A stretch of 64,000 nucleotides of DNA, taken from positions 1-64,000 of the forward strand of contig NZ_JAALJI010000014.1 of the NCBI RefSeq assembly GCF_011064595.1, read 5' to 3'. This DNA is from Paludisphaera soli (GTDB taxonomy: Bacteria > Planctomycetota > Planctomycetia > Isosphaerales > Isosphaeraceae). The position numbers and the translations under genes are program-made. Positions 19,605-28,003 of this stretch are shown here, one piece after another (position 1 is the first letter of the stretch; every line of letters begins with the position of its first letter). The notes below the pieces were generated by a model, which worked only from the letters and a program-made list of their open reading frames with translations, ran no database searches and was not told the origin of the DNA.

Positions 19605-22600
19605 TCAGGGCTGCTTCGGCTGCTCCGGCTTCGGCTCCGCGGGCGCGGGGACCTCGACCGAGGGAGCCTCGACGGCGACGTCGGCCGGCTTGGGCTGCTC
19701 CTCGGCGGGAGCCGGCGTCGTGGCCGGGGCAGGGGCTGATGCATCATCCTTCTTCGGCGGGACGGGCTTGCCGAGCTTTTCCAGGTAGTAGGCGATCAGG
19801 GGCCGCACCGTGAGGTCGGGCGCGAGCTCCAGGGCCTTCGTGTAATGCTCGACGGCACGCTCGGGCTCGCCCGCTTCGAGCAGGCACTGACCCAGCTCAA
19901 ACTCCCAGTCGGCCTCGCGGTTGATCATGCCGGGGGTCGACATCGCGTCGTTGGTCGCGGCCGTCAGCTCGCCCCGAAGGCTCCGGCCGGTGATGCCGAG
20001 CGCCTTCGCGCTGCGATCGTAGGCCACTCGGGGGATCGCCCGGCCCTGCCACAGCGAGGCAGCCGACGGGTAGTTCCCCCAGAGCTTGTAAACGAGGCCC
20101 TGCCGGTAGGCCGCCAGGTCGGGCTCGCCCAGGTTCGCGTCCTCGACGCCCGCAGACGAGAGCAGCTCCAGGGCGCGCTCGGGCTGGCCGGTCCCGCAGT
20201 AGAGGTCCAGCAGCTGCGGCTTGACGATCGTGGGGCTCATGTTGCCCCGTTCGGCGTCCTCGAACTGGATCATCGCCAGGCCCGCAGCCCCCTGGGAGAG
20301 CGCGAAGTTGCCCAGCTCGATCGGGCCCGCCTGGCGTTCGATCTGGAGATTGCTGAGCGCCTGGCTGATCTGCTCCACCTGCTGGTTGAGGGTCTCCAGC
20401 TGATTCTGATAGGCGACGCGGGCCTCGGGCTCCAGCTCGCCGGGCCGCGCCGCGTCCAGGAACGCGCGGAGCTGGTCGCGCGCCAGGTCGACGAAGCCGA
20501 GCTGACCATACGTCTCGAACAGCTCGAACTGGAGCGTCATCAGCTCGCGACGTTCGGCCTCGCTGCGCGGCGGCGGGGTCGTCTGGATGGCGTAGTTCAG
20601 CGAGGTCACGATCTGGCGGAGCCGGCCGCTCATGATCGCGCCGCCAGGCTTGATCGCGGCGATCCGGTCGCGATTCTCCGGGGTCAGCTCGATCCCGCTG
20701 ATGAGCGCCGCCTCTTGCTGGGCCAGGCTGCGATAGGCGAGGACGAGCAGGCGATACGCGGAGTAGTCGTCCGGATTCTGGGCCAGGGCGGTGCGGGCCT
20801 CCCGGATCGCCAGCAGGCAGCGGGCGGGGTCGGGGGGGGCGGGGGCGCCGTCGGCGTCGATCCCGCCGCCCAGCCATCGCCTCGCGGCGTTCACGTGAGC
20901 CCTGGGGGGGGTCAACGCCCGGCTCTGGAACACGTCGTCGATCCAGTTGACGGGGGTCGGCGGGCGGTCGGGCGAGGGGGTCGGCGAGGCGACCTTGTAC
21001 GCCCGCGACTCGGGGTCGAGCCGGTTCGCCCGGAAGGTCGCGACGTCGGGCTCGGCGGCGTCGGCCCGCCCGAACATGACGACGCGGCCGTCGTCGTAGA
21101 AGGGGATCCAGTTCGGGCTCTGCGAGAGTCGGCGATAGGTGTTGGTCGCGGTCGCCGAGTCGAGCATGACCGTCGAAATCCCGTATTCGTCGAAGACCGG
21201 CTTCCAGACCGAGGGGTCGTCGTCCCGCAGCGAGTTCAGCAGGTTCCGATGCTGCTCCAGGAGCGAGTCGGGGAACAGCCGCGAGCGGTTGTCGACGAAC
21301 ACCTTGCGGGCCGATCCGGCCTTCCAGAGCAAGGCGTCCCCCTGGCTCGCGCTCCAGTTGAAGACGTTGCCCTTGATGTCGTCGCGGGACGCCAGGTATT
21401 CGGCCGACTCGAACGCGAAATCGTTGGGGTCGAAGCCGAGCCCGAAGCGCGGGTCGCCGGGTAACTTGGTGTAGCCGGTGATCGAGATGCTGACGCAGAA
21501 GAAGAGCGCCGCCAAAGTCACGAGCCGGCCGCCGGTCGACCAGACCGTCCAGCCGCCTCCGACCCGTCCCGCCACGCCGAATCGCCGCTGGTACCACTCC
21601 TGGCCGTTCAGGGCCGCGGCGGCGGCCGCCACCACCGCGAACTCCGCGCTGTACCGCATATAGACGCCCCAGGCGACGGCGGCGAACGCGAAGGGGAGGA
21701 ACCGCGCCCAGGAGAACGCGGCGGCGTTCAGGGCGAACGTCGACGCGGCCAGGACGACGACGGCGAGGTAATAGAGCGTCAGCAGCTGCCAGCCGCCGGG
21801 ATACTGGGTGCGGATCGTCTTGCCGAAGTACGAGAGCTGGTCGAGAGTCGTCGGGGCCCCGCTGGTCGTGAACAGGCTCGTGACCGGCTCCAGCGCGGCC
21901 GGGTAGATCTTCACATGAGAGGGATTCAAGAGCACGATCGCCGCGCACGCCAGCAGGACCGAAGCCGCGAACCCGACGCCGACCGGCGGCCGGGCCTCTT
22001 CGTCCCGGTTCGGGCCCGGGGAGGAGCTGACCCGCGACCCGTCCAGGAGCTTGCCGAGGGTCGCGAAGGCGAGGATCCCCAGGCCCAGGATGAACGACTC
22101 GTCGACGTTCGCCCATACGAGGAACAGCGGCGGCAACGCGTAGAGGGCGCCGGCGCGATTCTGGCCGAAGGCCCTAAAGAGCCAGAGGGCTTCGAGGGCC
22201 AGGAACAGGACGCCCCACGTCGAGGGGCCGACCACCGCCGGCTGCGCCACGCCGCCGAGCATCAGGCCCGCCGGGCCGATCACCGCCCCCAGGGCCAGCG
22301 CCGTGCAGACGGCCGTCCACCAGAGGCCGGGGCCGCGATGGCGGACCCGGAGCAGGACGAGCGCCGAGGCCAGCCGCACAAGGGCCGTCAGCCCCACCAG
22401 GGCTCCGGTCGCGATCTGCTCGGCCGAGGCGCGGTTCGCGGTCGGGTCGTCCGGGGCCTCGGGGACCAGCCCGTAGACCAGGTTATAGAGCCCCGCGTGC
22501 GCCGCCTGGAAGAGCCAGGGGATGTTGACCCAGGTCCGCCCCGCCTCGGTGTAAGAGAACGAATCCGCGAGGATCGGCGTGCCTTTCGCGAGGATCTCTC

Positions 22601-22865
22601 GGCCCACGGTGAGGTTCGCCCAGAGCGGCGAATGACTCGTCCGGATGCACGAGGTGACTAGCGCCAGGAGGAGCACCGCCCCCATCACGTAGAGGTCGTA
22701 GTAGGCGTTCCATTCGGAGACCCGTTCGGGGGTCCAAGGCTCCGGCTCCGGCCCCGAATCGGCCTCCGAATCGTTCGGCTCGGGGGCCTCGTCGAGCAGC
22801 GGGTCGACGTCGTCGTGATCGCGCTTCTTGTCGGGAGCGGGGGAGGAGGCGTCGGGTCGTGTCAT
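19605..22865 (-). CDS. Large membrane protein with C-terminal TPR region
   Basis: 1086 residues from ATG 22865; an open frame continues upstream but begins the protein with an unlikely basic stretch. The first ~60 residues are acidic and disordered. About 10 membrane segments follow, with the GT-C-like motif SPLWANLTVGREILAKGTPI and FSYTEAGRTWVNIPWLFQ in the first external loop. A cytoplasmic or periplasmic half begins near 460 and ends in tetratricopeptide-like helices (LGQCLLEAGEPERAVEHYTKALELAP) and a low-complexity Pro/Ala/Glu tail. Similar proteins are annotated as tetratricopeptide or glycosyltransferase-like membrane proteins; activity unknown. It converges on the 239-residue secreted protein gene, 31 bp away. 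Confidence 0.8.
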   Translation of the reverse strand: MTRPDASSPAPDKKRDHDDVDPLLDEAPEPNDSEADSGPEPEPWTPERVSEWNAYYDLYVMGAVLLLALVTSCIRTSHSPLWANLTVGREILAKGTPILADSFSYTEAGRTWVNIPWLFQAAHAGLYNLVYGLVPEAPDDPTANRASAEQIATGALVGLTALVRLASALVLLRVRHRGPGLWWTAVCTALALGAVIGPAGLMLGGVAQPAVVGPSTWGVLFLALEALWLFRAFGQNRAGALYALPPLFLVWANVDESFILGLGILAFATLGKLLDGSRVSSSPGPNRDEEARPPVGVGFAASVLLACAAIVLLNPSHVKIYPAALEPVTSLFTTSGAPTTLDQLSYFGKTIRTQYPGGWQLLTLYYLAVVVLAASTFALNAAAFSWARFLPFAFAAVAWGVYMRYSAEFAVVAAAAAALNGQEWYQRRFGVAGRVGGGWTVWSTGGRLVTLAALFFCVSISITGYTKLPGDPRFGLGFDPNDFAFESAEYLASRDDIKGNVFNWSASQGDALLWKAGSARKVFVDNRSRLFPDSLLEQHRNLLNSLRDDDPSVWKPVFDEYGISTVMLDSATATNTYRRLSQSPNWIPFYDDGRVVMFGRADAAEPDVATFRANRLDPESRAYKVASPTPSPDRPPTPVNWIDDVFQSRALTPPRAHVNAARRWLGGGIDADGAPAPPDPARCLLAIREARTALAQNPDDYSAYRLLVLAYRSLAQQEAALISGIELTPENRDRIAAIKPGGAIMSGRLRQIVTSLNYAIQTTPPPRSEAERRELMTLQFELFETYGQLGFVDLARDQLRAFLDAARPGELEPEARVAYQNQLETLNQQVEQISQALSNLQIERQAGPIELGNFALSQGAAGLAMIQFEDAERGNMSPTIVKPQLLDLYCGTGQPERALELLSSAGVEDANLGEPDLAAYRQGLVYKLWGNYPSAASLWQGRAIPRVAYDRSAKALGITGRSLRGELTAATNDAMSTPGMINREADWEFELGQCLLEAGEPERAVEHYTKALELAPDLTVRPLIAYYLEKLGKPVPPKKDDASAPAPATTPAPAEEQPKPADVAVEAPSVEVPAPAEPKPEQPKQP

Positions 22866-23009
22866 GAGATTCAGCCGGCAAGAGAATCCGAATGATCGCG
22901 AATTCGACCAAGGTCGAGCGACGGCGTCTTTCACGCCGGCCGACGAGGTGAGAATTCATGCTAGGAGCCGTCGCGGAGGGCGGTCAAGGGGGGTGGCCGT
23001 CGGCGGTCG

Positions 23010-23037
23010 TTGACTTCGCCTCCCCTTCACCTAGAAT
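23010..23037 (+). promoter_or_regulatory. Promoter of the GT2 - BshC-like operon
   Basis: TTGACT (23010-23015) and TAGAAT (23032-23037) are separated by 16 bp, the best sigma70-like match in the window. Predicted transcription start near 23044, 80 nt before the glycosyltransferase ATG. Confidence 0.6.
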
Positions 23038-23123
23038 GCGTAGGTTCCGAACGGCGGCCTGCGAGCCATCCCCTTCACCTCGCCGGCCCCGCTCCCTCCA
23101 ACACTCCTTGCGATACCTCGCCG

Positions 23124-23843
23124 ATGAAACTCCTCACCGCCATCCCGGTCCACAATGAGGAGAAGTACCTGGAAGAGGTGCTTCGCCAGGTCCTCCAGTA
23201 CGCCGGCGACGTCCTGGTCGTCGACGACGGCTCGACCGATCGGACCCCGGAGCTGCTCGGCCGCTTCCCCTCCGTCCAGGTCGTCCGTCATCCGACCAAC
23301 CTCGGCTACGGCGCGGGCCTCCGGACGGCCTTCGCCCACGCCCTCGAAGGCGACTACGACGGCCTGGTGACGCTCGACTGCGACGGCCAGCACGAGCCCG
23401 CGCTCATCCCCTCCATCGGCGCGCGGCTCGACGGGGCCGACATCGTCTCCGGCAGCCGCTACCTCCAGGTGTTCGACCCCTCGCAGCGTCCGCCCGAGGA
23501 ACGACGGAAGATCAACGTCGAGGTCACCCGCTGGCTGAACGAGTGCCTGGGGCTGAACCTGACCGACGCCTTCTGCGGCTTCAAGGCGTACAACCGCCGG
23601 GCTCTGGAGTGCTTCGAGGTCACCGACCTGGGCTACGCGATGCCGCTCCAGATCTGGGTCCAGGCCGTGCGTCACGGGCTCAGGATCGTCGAGGCCCCGG
23701 TGCCCCTGATCTACTTGGACGAGTCCCGGGCCTTCGGCGGCTCGCTCGACGATTCGAACTATCGGCTCAACCACTACCGCCAGGTGTTCGCCGACGCCCT
23801 CAAGGCCGCGGGCCTGGAAGTGGCCGGAGGCTGTCGCGGATGA
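23124..23843 (+). CDS. Family 2 glycosyltransferase (DPM1/DolP-mannose synthase-like)
   Basis: 239 residues from ATG 23124; upstream in-frame codons precede the promoter and are not coding. GT-A fold landmarks: AIPVHNEEKYLEEVLRQV at the N-terminus, VLVVDDGSTDRTPELL, then the metal-binding DCDGQHEP and the GSRY motif, ending with an acceptor region FCGFKAYNRRALECF. The absence of membrane segments and the length fit DPM1-type or UDP-glucose/mannose transferases acting at the inner face of the membrane. It is translationally coupled to the BshC-like gene (ATGA overlap). Sugar donor and acceptor are not predictable. Confidence 0.92.
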   Translation: MKLLTAIPVHNEEKYLEEVLRQVLQYAGDVLVVDDGSTDRTPELLGRFPSVQVVRHPTNLGYGAGLRTAFAHALEGDYDGLVTLDCDGQHEPALIPSIGARLDGADIVSGSRYLQVFDPSQRPPEERRKINVEVTRWLNECLGLNLTDAFCGFKAYNRRALECFEVTDLGYAMPLQIWVQAVRHGLRIVEAPVPLIYLDESRAFGGSLDDSNYRLNHYRQVFADALKAAGLEVAGGCRG

Positions 23844-25486
23844 AAGGCACCCGCCTGCGGGCTCCCTCGACCGACGGCGGCCTGCTGGCGACGCCCCCGC
23901 TCGATCAGGCCGCCGCGCTCGTCGACGCCAACCAAGCCTGGGCGTCCACGTGGCGGCACGATTTCCAGGGTCGGCCGGCCGACTGGCTCCGCCAACAGGT
24001 TCGAAGGCAGGCCGCCGCCGAGTCCCGCGCCTATCTCGCCGAGATCGGCGTGGAGCCTCCTGCCGCCCGCATCGAAGAGCCGGCGGGCCGCGGCGCCTGG
24101 ATCGTCACGGGGCATCAGCCCGAGCTTTACCATCCCGGCGTCTGGGTCAAGAACTTCGCCGCCGCCGGCGTCGCTGCGGGTGAGGGGGCTTCCGCCCTGA
24201 ATCTGATCATCGACGACGACATCCCCAAGTCCTCCTCGATCCGCGTTCCGGCGCTCAAGAACGGTCGCCTGAGCGTCCGACGGATCGAGTTCGACCGCTG
24301 GGAAGGCGAGGCGCCCTACGAGGACCTGCCCGTCCGGGACGAAGAGGCCTTCGCGTCGTTCCCGACCCGAGTCCGCGACGAGTTGGACGGCCTGATCGCC
24401 GACCCGCTGATCGACCGCTTCTGGACCGAGGTCGCGCGGTACCGCGAGAGCGGGCTCCCCCTGGGGCTGCGGTTGGCGGCGGCGCGGCGGCGTGTCGAGG
24501 CTTCCTGGGGGATCTCCAATTTCGAGGTTCCTTTCAGTCGAATCTGCCAAACCGAGGGCTTCGCCTGGTTCGCCTGCCACCTGCTGGCCCATCTCGCCCG
24601 ATTCCAGACGATCCACAACCGGGCCCTGCTGGAGTACCGCGAGCTTTATAAGATCCGCAGCAAGAACCACCCGGTCTCGGCGCTCCGGCGTGAAGGGGAC
24701 TGGATGGAGGCCCCTTTCTGGACCTGGCGGGCGGGCCGACCGAGGCGACGCCCCCTGATGGTCCGGCAGGACGCCCATTCGATGCAGCTGCGGATCGCCG
24801 ATGAGGCCGAGCCCTTCCTGGAACTTCCGCTGTCCCCGGAACGCGAGGCATGCTGCGCCGTCGAGCGGCTCCTGGAACTTCCCGCGACCGGTGTCAGGCT
24901 TCGCACCCGGGCCCTGACCACGACGATGTTCAGCCGATACCTCCTCAGCGACCTGTTCATCCACGGCATCGGCGGGGCGAAGTACGATGAGCTGGGCGAC
25001 GTGGTGGCGCGTCGCTTCTTCCAGGACGCCGAGCCCCCGGGCTTCCTCACCCTGTCTTTAACGGCCTGGCTCGGCCTGCCGGAGTCGCCCGCGACGCCTC
25101 GGTCGCTCGCCGAGATCGATCGCCAGATCAGGGACCTGGAGTACAACCCGGACCTCAACCTGTCCGGCCCCCAATCCGACGCCCACCGAGACCTGATCGC
25201 GGAGAAGCGGTCCGTGGTGGCCGCCGAGCCCCCGACGCATGAAGGGCGCGTCGCCCGGTTCCGCAAGATCCGGGCGATCAACGAGGCGCTCCGCCCCCTG
25301 GTCGCCGATCGCATCGAGGTTCTGAAGGGCGAACGGCTCGCGATGGTCGAGGAGTTGGAGGAAAACCGCCTGGCCCGGAGTCGCGAGTACGCGGTCGTCC
25401 TGCATTCGCAGGGTCGGCTGCGTCCCTTGCTCACCGATCTGGCGAGGCCTGCCACGGTCCCGGCTATCGAGGCCGTCGAATCCTGA
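23840..25486 (+). CDS. BshC-like protein (putative cysteine-adding enzyme fold), function unproven
   Basis: 548 residues, beginning in an ATGA overlap with the glycosyltransferase. I do not recognise it as a named planctomycete enzyme, but its landmarks parallel bacillithiol synthase BshC. VTGHQPELYHPGVWVKNF corresponds to BshC VTGQQAGL-type; LNLIIDDDIPKSSSIRVPAL corresponds to the region with the acidic loop; and RTRALTTTMFSRYLLSDLFI with HGIGGAKYDELGDV corresponds to the BshC RP-x-LQD-x-LLPT and GGPGEIAY region. The C-terminus is a helical coiled stretch (residues ~480-540). BshC adds cysteine to GlcN-malate. Whether this protein does anything similar is inference from motif order only. Confidence 0.55.
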   Translation: MKGTRLRAPSTDGGLLATPPLDQAAALVDANQAWASTWRHDFQGRPADWLRQQVRRQAAAESRAYLAEIGVEPPAARIEEPAGRGAWIVTGHQPELYHPGVWVKNFAAAGVAAGEGASALNLIIDDDIPKSSSIRVPALKNGRLSVRRIEFDRWEGEAPYEDLPVRDEEAFASFPTRVRDELDGLIADPLIDRFWTEVARYRESGLPLGLRLAAARRRVEASWGISNFEVPFSRICQTEGFAWFACHLLAHLARFQTIHNRALLEYRELYKIRSKNHPVSALRREGDWMEAPFWTWRAGRPRRRPLMVRQDAHSMQLRIADEAEPFLELPLSPEREACCAVERLLELPATGVRLRTRALTTTMFSRYLLSDLFIHGIGGAKYDELGDVVARRFFQDAEPPGFLTLSLTAWLGLPESPATPRSLAEIDRQIRDLEYNPDLNLSGPQSDAHRDLIAEKRSVVAAEPPTHEGRVARFRKIRAINEALRPLVADRIEVLKGERLAMVEELEENRLARSREYAVVLHSQGRLRPLLTDLARPATVPAIEAVES

Positions 25487-25511
25487 CAATCGTTCCGGTC
25501 CTCCTGGGGCG

Positions 25512-25544
25512 GGGAAAAACCGCCCTTCGTCGACGGTTTTTCCC
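25512..25544. terminator. Perfect 11-bp inverted repeat after the BshC-like gene
   Basis: Arms GGGAAAAACCG and CGGTTTTTCCC enclose an 11-nt loop, 25 bp after the stop codon. The T5 run lies inside the right arm, so it could end transcription of the operon or act as a protein-binding site before the acetyltransferase gene. Confidence 0.5.
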
Positions 25545-25567
25545 TCGGTCCCCCTTTTCTCACGCCG

Positions 25568-25573
25568 TAGAAT
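25568..25573 (+). promoter_or_regulatory. Probable -10 box of the acetyltransferase gene
   Basis: TAGAAT, 88 nt before the start codon and just after the inverted repeat at 25512-25544. No convincing -35 box; the upstream spacer is T-rich (CCCCCTTTTCT). Confidence 0.35.
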
Positions 25574-25660
25574 GGGGTATGCGCGGCGGCGCGTCGTGAG
25601 CAGCGATGCGCACGCCCATTCCACGGTTGACAGTCCCCGCCCCGGCGGCGCGTCCGAAAG

Positions 25661-26941
25661 ATGGTCGACCCGATGAAAGCCTCCACACCGGAGACTCGGC
25701 TCCCGTTTCGTCGAGGATCGGTCGAATATTGCCTGGGGACCGAGGCCGACCACGAGGCGGTGTACCAGACGCTGCTCCACGTCTTCCACGGGCCGGACCG
25801 CGAGGCGTTCCTGGGCGCGCTCAGCGACCCCGCGTACCGCCCGGAACAGCGACTTCTGGTCAAGGTCGACGGCCGGATCGCCTGCCACGCCCACCTGACC
25901 GAGCGCGAGATCCGCTACGGATCGGTGACGCTGCGGATGAACGGCGTGGTCTGGGTCGGCACGCTCCCCGAGTATCGAGGCCTCGGCTTCGCCCAGAACC
26001 TGATGCGGCTGGCCGACGAGCGGACCCGGGCCACAGGGGCCGTGGTGCAGGCTCTGACGACCCGGATGCCGCGCTTCTACAAGCCCCTGGGCTGGGGCGT
26101 CTGCGGGCGGAGCACGTTCGGCCAGACCCTCAGCCGCAACCTCCCCCAGGCCGCCGACGGCGTGGTCGAAACGAAGGGAGGGGGGTGGCACGTCCGCCCC
26201 TGGAGGCAGGTCGAGCTGGGCGACCTGATGGCCCTCTACGACATGCAGTTCCAGACGACTACCGGGACCACCGTCCGCTCGGAAGAGTACTGGCGATGGT
26301 TGATCGGTCGGCGCTACGCCCACGTCATCTGGGTCGCATGCCAGGGCGACGCCGTGCGCGGCTACGCCTTCGTGAAAGACCACCGCATCCTCGAGATCGC
26401 GGCCGACCCGGCCTATCCCCAGGCGCTTCGGGCGCTGCTCGGCCGGGTCCGGGCGGAGGCGCTTGAGCGGGCGTACCCCGAGGTCACGATCAACGCCCCG
26501 ATGGACCACCCGGCGCTCGACGCCTGCCGATCCGTCGGGGGTAAGGTTTTCGATCAGGACGCGGTCGATGGCTCCGTATCGATGTACCACGCCCCGGACG
26601 TCGGCCGATTTCTGCGGGCGATCCTGCCCGAGCTGAGCCGTCGAGTCCAGGATTCCGGCACCACCACCCCCGTTGAACTGGGCCTCACGGTGGACGATCA
26701 CCGATGGCTGATCCATGCCGACGGCAAGGACTCGCGGGTCGAGCCCGACAAGCTGAGCCGTCGTCACCTCGCACTCAGCTCCGGGACGTTCGTCCGGCTC
26801 GCGATGGGCCACGTCGGGGTCGACGAGGCGGCCAACGAGGACGGATTCGTCGCCTCCACCGCCACGGCCCTCGACGCCGCCCGCATCCTCTTCCCGGTCC
26901 AGCCCATCTGGCGCAGCCCGCTCGACGCGGCGACGGCCTGA
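25661..26941 (+). CDS. GNAT family N-acetyltransferase, Eis-like
   Basis: 426 residues. The first GNAT domain has the acetyl-CoA loop signature VGTLPEYRGLGFAQNLMRL (R/Q-x2-G-x-G/A) at about residues 105-125, and a second, weaker acyltransferase-like half follows (VIWVACQGDAVRGYAFVKDH), then a C-terminal SCP2-like region. This arrangement and length match the Eis group of acetyltransferases. Such enzymes transfer acetyl groups to amines, including aminoglycosides or small metabolites; the substrate is unknown. The frame allows ATG 25661 or ATG 25673; the second lacks a better ribosome site, so the first is kept. It lies 174 bp downstream of the BshC-like gene behind an inverted repeat and a TAGAAT box, so it may be separately transcribed. 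Confidence 0.85.
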   Translation: MVDPMKASTPETRLPFRRGSVEYCLGTEADHEAVYQTLLHVFHGPDREAFLGALSDPAYRPEQRLLVKVDGRIACHAHLTEREIRYGSVTLRMNGVVWVGTLPEYRGLGFAQNLMRLADERTRATGAVVQALTTRMPRFYKPLGWGVCGRSTFGQTLSRNLPQAADGVVETKGGGWHVRPWRQVELGDLMALYDMQFQTTTGTTVRSEEYWRWLIGRRYAHVIWVACQGDAVRGYAFVKDHRILEIAADPAYPQALRALLGRVRAEALERAYPEVTINAPMDHPALDACRSVGGKVFDQDAVDGSVSMYHAPDVGRFLRAILPELSRRVQDSGTTTPVELGLTVDDHRWLIHADGKDSRVEPDKLSRRHLALSSGTFVRLAMGHVGVDEAANEDGFVASTATALDAARILFPVQPIWRSPLDAATA

Positions 26942-26983
26942 GTCGGCCCCGATCTCGGTTCGCCTGCGGATCGGCGCGGCCGC

Positions 26984-28003
26984 CTACGGGAAGAGTTGGC
27001 GTCGGGTGAAGTAGCGGCGGACGGGGGGCGAGTTCAGGTACGCCGCGAAGAGCGCGTAGATGATCATGAACGTCACGCCGTACATGATCCGCTGCTGGTC
27101 CAGGCGGTCCACGAGCGGCTTGTATTCGTAGTCCGCCAGTTCCCCGATCGTCCCGTCTTCGATGGGGGCCGTGGCCCGCGTCACCAGGTCGCTCTGCTCG
27201 GCGAAGTTGGCCTCGAAGATGGGCAGCCCGATCATCGCGATCACGTCGACGATCGCGCCCAGCGTCAGGGCCAGGATCAGCACCTTCACCGACTTCCCGC
27301 GCAGGAACTGGGCGGCCCCGTACACTCCGTAGCCGGCCACCACGGCCAGCATGAGCCAGCCGTACTGGTAGACTCCGGCCTCCACCCGGACGGACTGGAT
27401 CAGGGAGAGGATCGCCAGGATCAGCCCCGCGAGCCCGCAGAGCATCCCGGGGATGGCGATGTGGAGCGGGATCCCCGAGGGGGGCGGGGGGGGCGGCGGG
27501 TACAGGTCGTCGTCGAGCCCGACGTGCATCCCGGTGTCCTGATCGGTCCCGCAGGTGGGGCAGATCGACATCCCCCGCGGCACCGAGCCGTGACAGCGGG
27601 TGCAGCGCCTGGCCTGGGCGCGCGCCTCCGCGCCGACCGGCTTCTTCTTGCGGCGGGGCTCGTCCTTGAAGAGGGCGGCGGCGTCGCCGATGGCCGCCGG
27701 CGGCGAGCCGACGCTCTTCTCCGCCTCGCCCGCCAGCATCGGCAGGTCGAAGGCGTCGCGAAGGTCCCCCTCGGCCCGGGGCGAGGGCAGGTCGTCCAGG
27801 TTCGGCAGACCTTTGGGAAGTTCGTATGTGGAAGTGTTCGCCGCGTCGGCCTCGCCGGGCCGCGTGGACGCCGAGTTGGCGTCCTTGGGCGTGACCGTGA
27901 ACCTGTGCTGGCACTTCGGGCACTTCAGGCGCTTGCCCGCCGGCACCTGATCGGGCAGGTTCAGGACGGCTCGACATTGCTCGCAAGTAATCGTGCGCGG
28001 CAT
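26984..28003 (-). CDS. MJ0042-type zinc-finger membrane protein
   Basis: 339 residues. The first 40 residues form an MJ0042-type zinc finger (C7-x2-C10 ... KCPKCQHRF), then a disordered stretch with Ala/Ser/Glu. A second zinc ribbon follows (RCTRCHGSVPRGMSICPTCG), then a run of seven prolines and four membrane segments (LHIAIPGMLCGLAGLILAIL; YGWLMLAVVAGYGVYGAAQF; LILALTLGAIVDVIAMIGLP; MYGVTFMIIYALFAAYL). Proteins of this make-up are common in planctomycetes and have no known function; a membrane-linked sensor or organising role is only a guess. The gene reads toward the acetyltransferase gene and ends 42 bp after it. Confidence 0.85.
   Translation of the reverse strand: MPRTITCEQCRAVLNLPDQVPAGKRLKCPKCQHRFTVTPKDANSASTRPGEADAANTSTYELPKGLPNLDDLPSPRAEGDLRDAFDLPMLAGEAEKSVGSPPAAIGDAAALFKDEPRRKKKPVGAEARAQARRCTRCHGSVPRGMSICPTCGTDQDTGMHVGLDDDLYPPPPPPPSGIPLHIAIPGMLCGLAGLILAILSLIQSVRVEAGVYQYGWLMLAVVAGYGVYGAAQFLRGKSVKVLILALTLGAIVDVIAMIGLPIFEANFAEQSDLVTRATAPIEDGTIGELADYEYKPLVDRLDQQRIMYGVTFMIIYALFAAYLNSPPVRRYFTRRQLFP

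Follow-up and report, generated by a model that had tools for sequence, protein, structure and literature searches.

The locus described here lies in a 64,000-nucleotide stretch of the Paludisphaera soli genome (assembly GCF_011064595.1, contig NZ_JAALJI010000014.1, positions 1 to 64,000 of the forward strand; hereafter the window), part of a 7.97 Mb assembly in 197 contigs. It encodes a GT2-type glycosyltransferase (GT2), a 548-residue protein with the fold of the bacillithiol synthase BshC (BL), and an Eis-like GNAT acetyltransferase, and our analysis suggests that GT2 and BL probably serve in the synthesis of a low-molecular-weight thiol. A check of open reading frames (ORFs) recovered the three genes where a sequence-only reading of the window had placed them, and agreed with it that the ATG of BL overlaps the stop codon of GT2 as ATGA and that 174 bp separate BL from the GNAT gene, for which an alternative start at 25673 is possible (conserved MKA; start consensus). 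The genes and their main features are as follows.

23124..23843, + strand: GT2 glycosyltransferase, 239 aa, ATG start (PF00535; AlphaFold2 model; Foldseek; co-occurrence with BL)
23376..23384, + strand: D85-C86-D87 of GT2, a DxD-type metal/nucleotide motif (invariant in 47 GT2 rows)
23840..25486, + strand: BL, 548 aa, BshC fold, proposed to ligate an amino acid (cysteine) (AlphaFold2 model; best match 4wbd)
24107..24157, + strand: BL residues 90-106, TGHQPELYHPGVWVKNF, equivalent of the BshC TGQQ...K motif (conserved in BL alignments; hhalign to BshC)
24902..25000, + strand: BL residues 355-387, RTRALTTT...FIHGIGGAKYDELGD, possible equivalent of BshC RPL...GGPGEIAY (conserved in BL alignments; low-threshold hhalign only)
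25238..25375, + strand: long C-terminal helix of BL, residues 467-512, at the position of the BshC coiled coil (DSSP of the AlphaFold2 model; the 4wbd alignment covers residues 2-538)
25661..26941, + strand: Eis-like GNAT acetyltransferase, 426 aa, ATG start, proposed accessory N-acetylation (PF13527; best PDB match 3n7z)

BL matched zero Pfam families at E<=1 and zero PDB sequences at E<=10, its only NCBIfam entry was at chance level, and 60 BL sequences scanned singly yielded no relevant Pfam or NCBIfam family. The AlphaFold2 model of BL, built from a 60-row alignment (mean pLDDT 95.2, pTM 0.91), has the BshC fold as seen in 4WBD, with its Rossmann core, connecting peptides and C-terminal coiled coil, in keeping with the BshC-like motif order noted in the sequence-only reading. 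Foldseek placed Bacillus subtilis BshC (4wbd) first among PDB matches (E 6.3e-12, TM 0.47) and the class I lysyl-tRNA synthetase (LysRS) 1irx second (E 2.3e-6). Comparison with VIA gave the same order, with a Z of 26.5 over 459 aligned residues for 4wbd (rmsd 7.2) and 19.5 over 279 residues for 1irx (rmsd 3.2 A), followed by class I synthetases near Z 10 and by the cysteinyl-tRNA synthetase 1li7 and the mycothiol ligase MshC (3c8z) at 9.2; families missing from the VIA list were not counted as evidence. The high rmsd and modest TM suggest domain shifts between the BL model and 4wbd.

Profile comparisons linked the two families weakly with the narrower profiles and more firmly with the wider ones: hhalign gave a probability of 7.4 (P 0.0048) for 60 BL rows against 18 BshC rows, and of 78.9 (P 1.6e-5) for 100 BL rows against 28 BshC rows, with three unrelated profiles at 0.1-2.0. 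(BL alignments comprised 18 of 42 family matches in A1 and the window with 59 of 80 loci in A4; the BshC alignment A5 held the 18 of 27 BshC ORFs extractable from 30 loci, and L152 was omitted from the wide profile.) The resemblance of BL to BshC is real, plain in fold and remote by sequence, and the sequence-only reading had likewise called the match remote. In these alignments, BL TGHQPEL..PGVW.K falls on BshC TGQQ...K and, at low threshold only, BL RALTTT...HGIGGAKYD falls on RPL...GGPGEIAY; overall, the BshC motifs TGQQ...K, DHD, R(P)L and GGPGEIAY may correspond, with modest alignment confidence, to TGHQ...K, D.D, R(A)L and GIGGAKYD in BL.

The altered motifs (TGHQP for TGQQ, HGIGGAKYD for GGPGEIAY) could be taken to mean that BL, as a paralogue of BshC, is degenerate or has a structural role and is devoid of ligase activity. 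We regard this as very improbable, given that 35 columns are invariant across the 60 BL sequences, that no canonical BshC occurs in the same genome, and that BL is single-copy in 42 of the 45 genomes searched in the window's family (Isosphaeraceae), including 26 of 26 of good quality. This conservation also indicates that the locus is not a chance observation. Shorter, strongly diverged forms of BL (457-467 aa in families f6 and f66; also in f88; loci L191-L195) stand beside a conserved GT2 of 254-323 bits.

GT2 scored 85.4 bits against PF00535 (cut-off 23.3), and its AlphaFold2 model (pLDDT 89.9) has a GT-A fold with Foldseek matches to ArnC, DPMS, GtrB and GpgS (4dec). The first three use polyisoprenyl phosphates, and GpgS (glucosyl-3-phosphoglycerate synthase) uses a small acceptor. 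DPMS was its best PDB sequence match (E 1.1e-17), and it fell far under the cut-off of the PpgS equivalog (97.5 bits versus 370). The 19-residue Kyte-Doolittle maximum of the window GT2 was 0.76, and windows above 1.6 occurred in none of 47 members (alignment A7, the window plus 46 of 72). A small soluble acceptor is plausible and a lipid acceptor possible. Two cysteines, C86 (inside the DxD motif) and C151, are invariant in the 47 sequences.

The pairing of GT2 with BL was widely conserved among relatives, which include Singulisphaera acidiphila DSM 18658 (L071), Aquisphaera insulae (L053) and Tautonia sociabilis (L065), so that the neighbours are not scattered; neither this nor the fold comparison gave the outcome that the sequence-only reading had named as refuting its idea. 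Within the window's family, the GT2 stop lay -4 to +5 bases from the BL start in 37 of the 39 genomes examined, GT2 being cut by a contig end or incomplete in the locus in the other two. Among testable loci, GT2 stood directly upstream of BL in 27/27 of L051-L077, 47/52 of L078-L130 (L106 lacks upstream sequence and was left out, so that 52 of the 53 loci were testable) and 16/19 of L132-L150; the three genomes of the last set without an adjacent GT2 (G131, G149 and G260) carry it elsewhere. A wider genome scan reaching other phyla gave only planctomycete names among the best 80 of 249 relatives, and none of the 21 stretches that matched a pattern in a viral scan encoded a relative.

Much of the surroundings is also syntenic within the window's family, as would be expected if GT2 and BL were mere neighbours with unrelated functions. 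When ORFs lying up to 6 kb from BL were clustered across loci L078-L130, however, BL was recovered in all 53, GT2 in 47 of them and the GNAT in only 8 (9 by profile count), with other neighbours in at most seven loci each and four clusters of 10-44 loci that by strand and offset are antisense frames of BL or GT2. Since other neighbours do not persist there, the GT2-BL pair is not explained by general synteny, and the two genes occur together even when unlinked (below); an accident of gene order is hence scarcely credible.

The GNAT is a different case. It scored 74.6 bits against PF13527 (cut-off 25; SCP2_2 was sub-threshold), its PDB hits are GNATs of 388-406 aa, and it reached only 23.3 bits against the NCBIfam Eis model NF002368, far under the cut-off of 576. 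No MshD model was among its three NCBIfam hits at E<=1, although whether the library includes MshD was unchecked. The sequence-only reading had counted it as a member of the cluster, and it does lie beside BL in the window and downstream of BL in 27/27 of L051-L077, but only in 9/47 of L078-L130 and 2/19 of L132-L150 (denominators omit loci with too little downstream sequence). At L047, a locus of the window's family with BL and GT2 (genome G012), no GNAT match was found within 18 kb. This patchy adjacency and the missing match at L047 indicate an accessory rather than a core gene, leaving GT2, BL and the deacetylase BshB1 as the core set.

We examined co-occurrence in 294 genomes drawn from Planctomycetota, using a GT2 cut-off that we set at E<=1e-45. 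BL was present in 54 genomes and GT2 in 53, and they were found together in 52; GT2 occurred apart from BL only in G138. BshC (PF10079) was present in 150 genomes and BshA (TIGR03999 over its cut-off) in 142, with 138 carrying both. No genome combined BL with BshC, and none combined BL with BshA over the cut-off, so that the caution of the sequence-only reading over the glycosyltransferase type (GT2, not GT4) proved right. An ordinary bacillithiol operon is rejected for the window genome, where both BshA over the cut-off and PF10079 BshC are missing (the best BshA match, at E 1.4e-33, was not over the TIGR03999 cut-off of 273.7 bits). The exclusion extends to families: 13 of 93 contained BL and 46 BshC, with no overlap (hypergeometric P 5e-5). 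Genome-level Fisher values are far smaller, but they count relatives as independent. In family f26, GT2 matches beside canonical BshC were weak (43-69 bits), lay on the opposite strand in the wide loci L204 and L206 and were lacking in L205; we rejected them as a cognate GT2.

Linkage was not needed for joint retention. In families f45 and f52, GT2 and BL are unlinked yet both retained, except in G311, which lacks GT2. Among the 15 f45 genomes with BL, GT2 was found in 14 and the BL-type deacetylase (see below) in 15, and no two of the three genes were adjacent where places were compared. Hydrazine synthase alpha (PF18582) was detected in three of four f45 genomes tested and in G101 (family f50), indicating that anammox bacteria carry the GT2/BL/deacetylase set.

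A deacetylase, unmentioned in the sequence-only reading, completes this set and in the window genome is encoded on a different contig (C154) from GT2 and BL (C46):

L251:9406-10098, own contig C154: BshB1 of the window genome (TIGR04001, 206 bits, over the NCBI cut-off of 182.5)

PIG-L deacetylases (PF02585) were present in 15 of 15 genomes tested. For a tree of 37 rows, stretches were fetched for 40 of 54 matches, three of which lacked an ORF under the motif rule. Each of the ten BL genomes represented in the tree had exactly one member in a single group. That group falls within a supported clade (99/97) that also takes in PIG-L proteins of four bacillithiol-type genomes and another group, of five members, from the window's class. 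In one of the bacillithiol-type genomes (G055) the clade gene lies between BshA and BshC, and an eleventh BL genome, G282, checked outside the tree, also has the BL-type deacetylase. On a profile from the ten members, BL-type deacetylases scored 345-384 bits and other PIG-L rows at most 214, and all 49 genomes of the phylum with a match of at least 300 bits were BL genomes. Against TIGR04001, other BL-type deacetylases scored 218.7 and 199.2 bits, over the NCBI cut-off, and 174.3, under it. We set the cut-offs ourselves, for BL-type deacetylases at 300 or 220 bits (with the list at 1e-50) and for BshB1 at E<=1e-48. At NCBI's own cut-off BshB1 occurred in 173 of 294 genomes, and at E<=1e-48 in 187, comprising 48/54 with BL, 139/150 with BshC and 0/90 with neither. 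Among the six BL genomes missed, G078, G216 and G314 have a BL-type deacetylase of 306-344 bits, G075 has a 222-bit match, and G085 and G137 have none. The case for BL taking the place of BshC is strongest here, in that a bacillithiol-type deacetylase is kept only in genomes with one or other ligase family. Linkage of BshB1 to GT2-BL was rejected, as it was not found in the 11 genomes looked at, where no neighbour recurred beyond antisense frames.

With the BshC fold, the conserved GT2-BL linkage and the distributions above, the idea of a cluster resembling thiol synthesis, already raised in the sequence-only reading, gains support, and we consider it probable that GT2 and BL each catalyse a step in making a low-molecular-weight thiol, by a route parallel to bacillithiol synthesis but with a different glycosyltransferase and a highly diverged ligase. 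In our best reading, GT2 would replace BshA, BL would replace BshC and BshB1 would be kept, giving an aminosugar-amino-acid product, most likely Cys-GlcN. GT2 would move an N-acetyl-aminosugar (assumed to be GlcNAc) from a nucleotide sugar onto a small acceptor; the BshB1-type deacetylase, encoded elsewhere, would free the amine; BL, as a class-I-synthetase-like enzyme, would activate an amino acid, most likely cysteine, and join it to that amine; and where the GNAT is present, as in the window, the new amine may be acetylated, as MshD does in mycothiol synthesis. From the analogy with known pathways we infer every substrate (sugar and acceptor), cysteine as the amino acid and a role as redox buffer. 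More tentatively, and as something that could well prove otherwise, we propose that GT2, BshB1 and BL make a third cysteinyl-aminosugar thiol, neither mycothiol nor bacillithiol, which the GNAT N-acetylates in the window organism and in relatives closer to it. This compound would be what the class Planctomycetia, anammox bacteria and some other planctomycete lineages use as their low-molecular-weight thiol.

The product could instead be bacillithiol itself, with GT2 an unrelated enzyme making the same GlcNAc-malate as BshA and BL a fast-diverged true BshC. BshB1 is indeed common to both pathways in the proportions given above, and among the matches of GT2 are soluble enzymes whose acceptors are small acids (GpgS, 4dec). 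Further in its favor is the genome with GT2 and without BL (G138), which has no BshA over the cut-off and combines one gene resembling GT2 (211 bits) and one resembling BshB1 (253 bits) with a canonical (PF10079) BshC that reads AGHQP at the motif (compare TGHQP in BL):

L262:6032-7675, - strand: BshC of G138
L263:6604-7380, - strand: GT2-like gene of G138
L264:6492-7178, - strand: BshB1-like gene of G138

This natural mixture of the two pathways may be a transitional form, and it looks as though BL and BshC could take each other's place. However, the change from GT4 to GT2, together with divergence of BshC past Pfam recognition, argues for a changed substrate, and the BshB1 proteins of BL genomes form their own group in the tree. 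GT2 enzymes usually invert, and bacillithiol is an alpha-glycoside, which also speaks against an identical product. We regard bacillithiol as a real possibility, albeit one that we doubt.

Alternatively, the pathway may be real but make no thiol, with BL adding a different amino acid, such as lysine, to an aminosugar after its deacetylation; the aminosugar might be carried on a lipid or an envelope glycan that GT2 helps to make. The second structural match of BL, class I LysRS (Z 19.5, 3.2 A), and the proximity of GT2 to polyisoprenyl-phosphate transferases are consistent with such a product, but along its full length BL matches BshC better (Z 26.5, 459 residues), and the complementarity with BshA and BshC and the shared BshB1 point to the same role as theirs. 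Furthermore, GT2 is devoid of a strongly hydrophobic stretch, and its neighbourhood showed no conspicuous conserved gene for the envelope or for a lipid carrier. We consider a non-thiol product unlikely.

Several observations nonetheless weigh against a BshC-like thiol pathway built on GT2, BL and BshB1. By sequence, the similarity of BL to BshC is marginal (probability 7.4 with the narrower profiles), and PF10079 (cut-off 27 bits) had no match in the window genome and was not one of the families hit when 60 BL sequences were scanned. Because class I LysRS is the second structural match, the amino acid could be one other than cysteine; likewise, the closeness of GT2 to ArnC and DPMS makes a lipid acceptor possible. 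Two BL genomes lacked GT2 (G158, 81% complete; G311, 99% complete in 400 contigs), and G085 (83% complete) and G137 (86%) had no BshB-like match at the thresholds used; G085, G137 and G158 are less than 90% complete, and G311 is not. The genomes are not independent, and the family-level P of zero overlap is only 5e-5. None of the 16 genomes examined for YpdA, 11 of them with BL and 5 with BshC, had it over its cut-off, so that YpdA does not separate the two sets. Finally, a YbdK/GshA-related protein in the window genome means that glutathione or gamma-glutamylcysteine may serve as a further thiol. This PF04107 protein exceeded the cut-off of TIGR02050 only (YbdK family, 289.7 versus 176.4 bits), with glutamate-cysteine ligase models scoring it up to 346.4 bits, below their cut-offs. 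Glutathione as an explanation of the overall pattern was rejected, with PF04107 present in only 5 of 11 BL genomes tested.

In the hydrazine synthase genome G101, a YpdA-like gene (YpdA being the bacillithiol disulfide reductase family; 306.8 bits, cut-off 339.9) lies about 2 kb from BshB1 and is a candidate reductase for the predicted thiol:

L256:3847-4875, + strand: YpdA-like gene of G101
L256:6735-7439, - strand: BshB1 of G101

In the window, a promoter-like match precedes GT2:

23010..23037, + strand: sigma-70-like promoter match upstream of GT2, TTGACT-16-TAGAAT, 10/12 (consensus match only)

Promoter-like sites within 22900-27100 numbered 2, versus 0.3 expected in shuffles. A scan of the same interval found no terminator-like site, between BL and the GNAT gene or elsewhere, a negative that proves nothing. 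Divergent from GT2 (19605-22934, - strand) is a gene for a protein of 1109 aa, with TPR repeats and an N-terminal half that appears hydrophobic, which adjoins GT2 in many loci of the window's family.

Bacillithiol is a small protective sulfur compound, and the chemistry of the parallel pathway described here is predicted. In a 2018 article, Planctomycetes, with Verrucomicrobia and Spirochaetes, are said to have no documented or predicted low-molecular-weight thiol (PMC6282198). With BshA over its cut-off in 142 of 294 genomes, that statement is not true of the phylum as a whole, as sampled here. Canonical BshA and BshC are present in about half of the genomes, which predicts that bacillithiol itself is widespread in Planctomycetota. 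A survey of bacillithiol genes over 43 phyla does not mention planctomycetes in its main text (PMC12719100), and glutathione peroxidase genes are reported, in a study of anammox bacteria, as conserved only in Scalindua among those studied (PMC10156729). We found no description of the GT2/BL/BshB1 set in a search of open-access literature on planctomycetes or anammox bacteria with bacillithiol or low-molecular-weight thiols. Our data thus provide candidate genes for the thiol gap in the window's class and in the hydrazine synthase (anammox) genomes, making an open question testable; the predicted gap-filler is a bacillithiol-like pathway with its first and last enzymes exchanged and its middle one kept. 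As a diverged relative of BshC, BL may also help in the study of this ligase, for which, according to a 2015 review, in vitro activity had yet to be demonstrated (PMC4360819).

The enzyme families of bacillithiol and mycothiol synthesis, the basis of our pathway analogy, are treated in the same review (PMC4360819). With the bacillithiol pathway (BshA-BshB-BshC of Bacillus, which has an N-methyl variant with NmbA), the system shares a BshB1 over the NCBI cut-off, a BshC-fold protein and a glycosyltransferase as the presumed first step. It differs in that the window genome has neither BshA over the cut-off nor PF10079 BshC, in having GT2 in place of a GT4 enzyme, and in that BL is recognised by no BshC family model searched. 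The mycothiol pathway of Actinobacteria (MshA-MshB-MshC-MshD) follows a shared logic of glycosyltransferase, deacetylase, cysteine ligase with a class I synthetase fold and then GNAT, but BL resembles MshC (3c8z) much less closely than it does BshC (Z 9.2 versus 26.5), and the GNAT here is Eis-like and accessory. Class I lysyl-tRNA synthetase (1irx) has a core fold in common with BL, though it covers about half of BL and shows no sequence match. DPMS, ArnC, GtrB and GpgS share the GT-A fold with GT2, which itself has no strongly hydrophobic stretch, and Eis-type GNATs share the PF13527 domain with the window GNAT, which lies far under the NCBIfam Eis cut-off.

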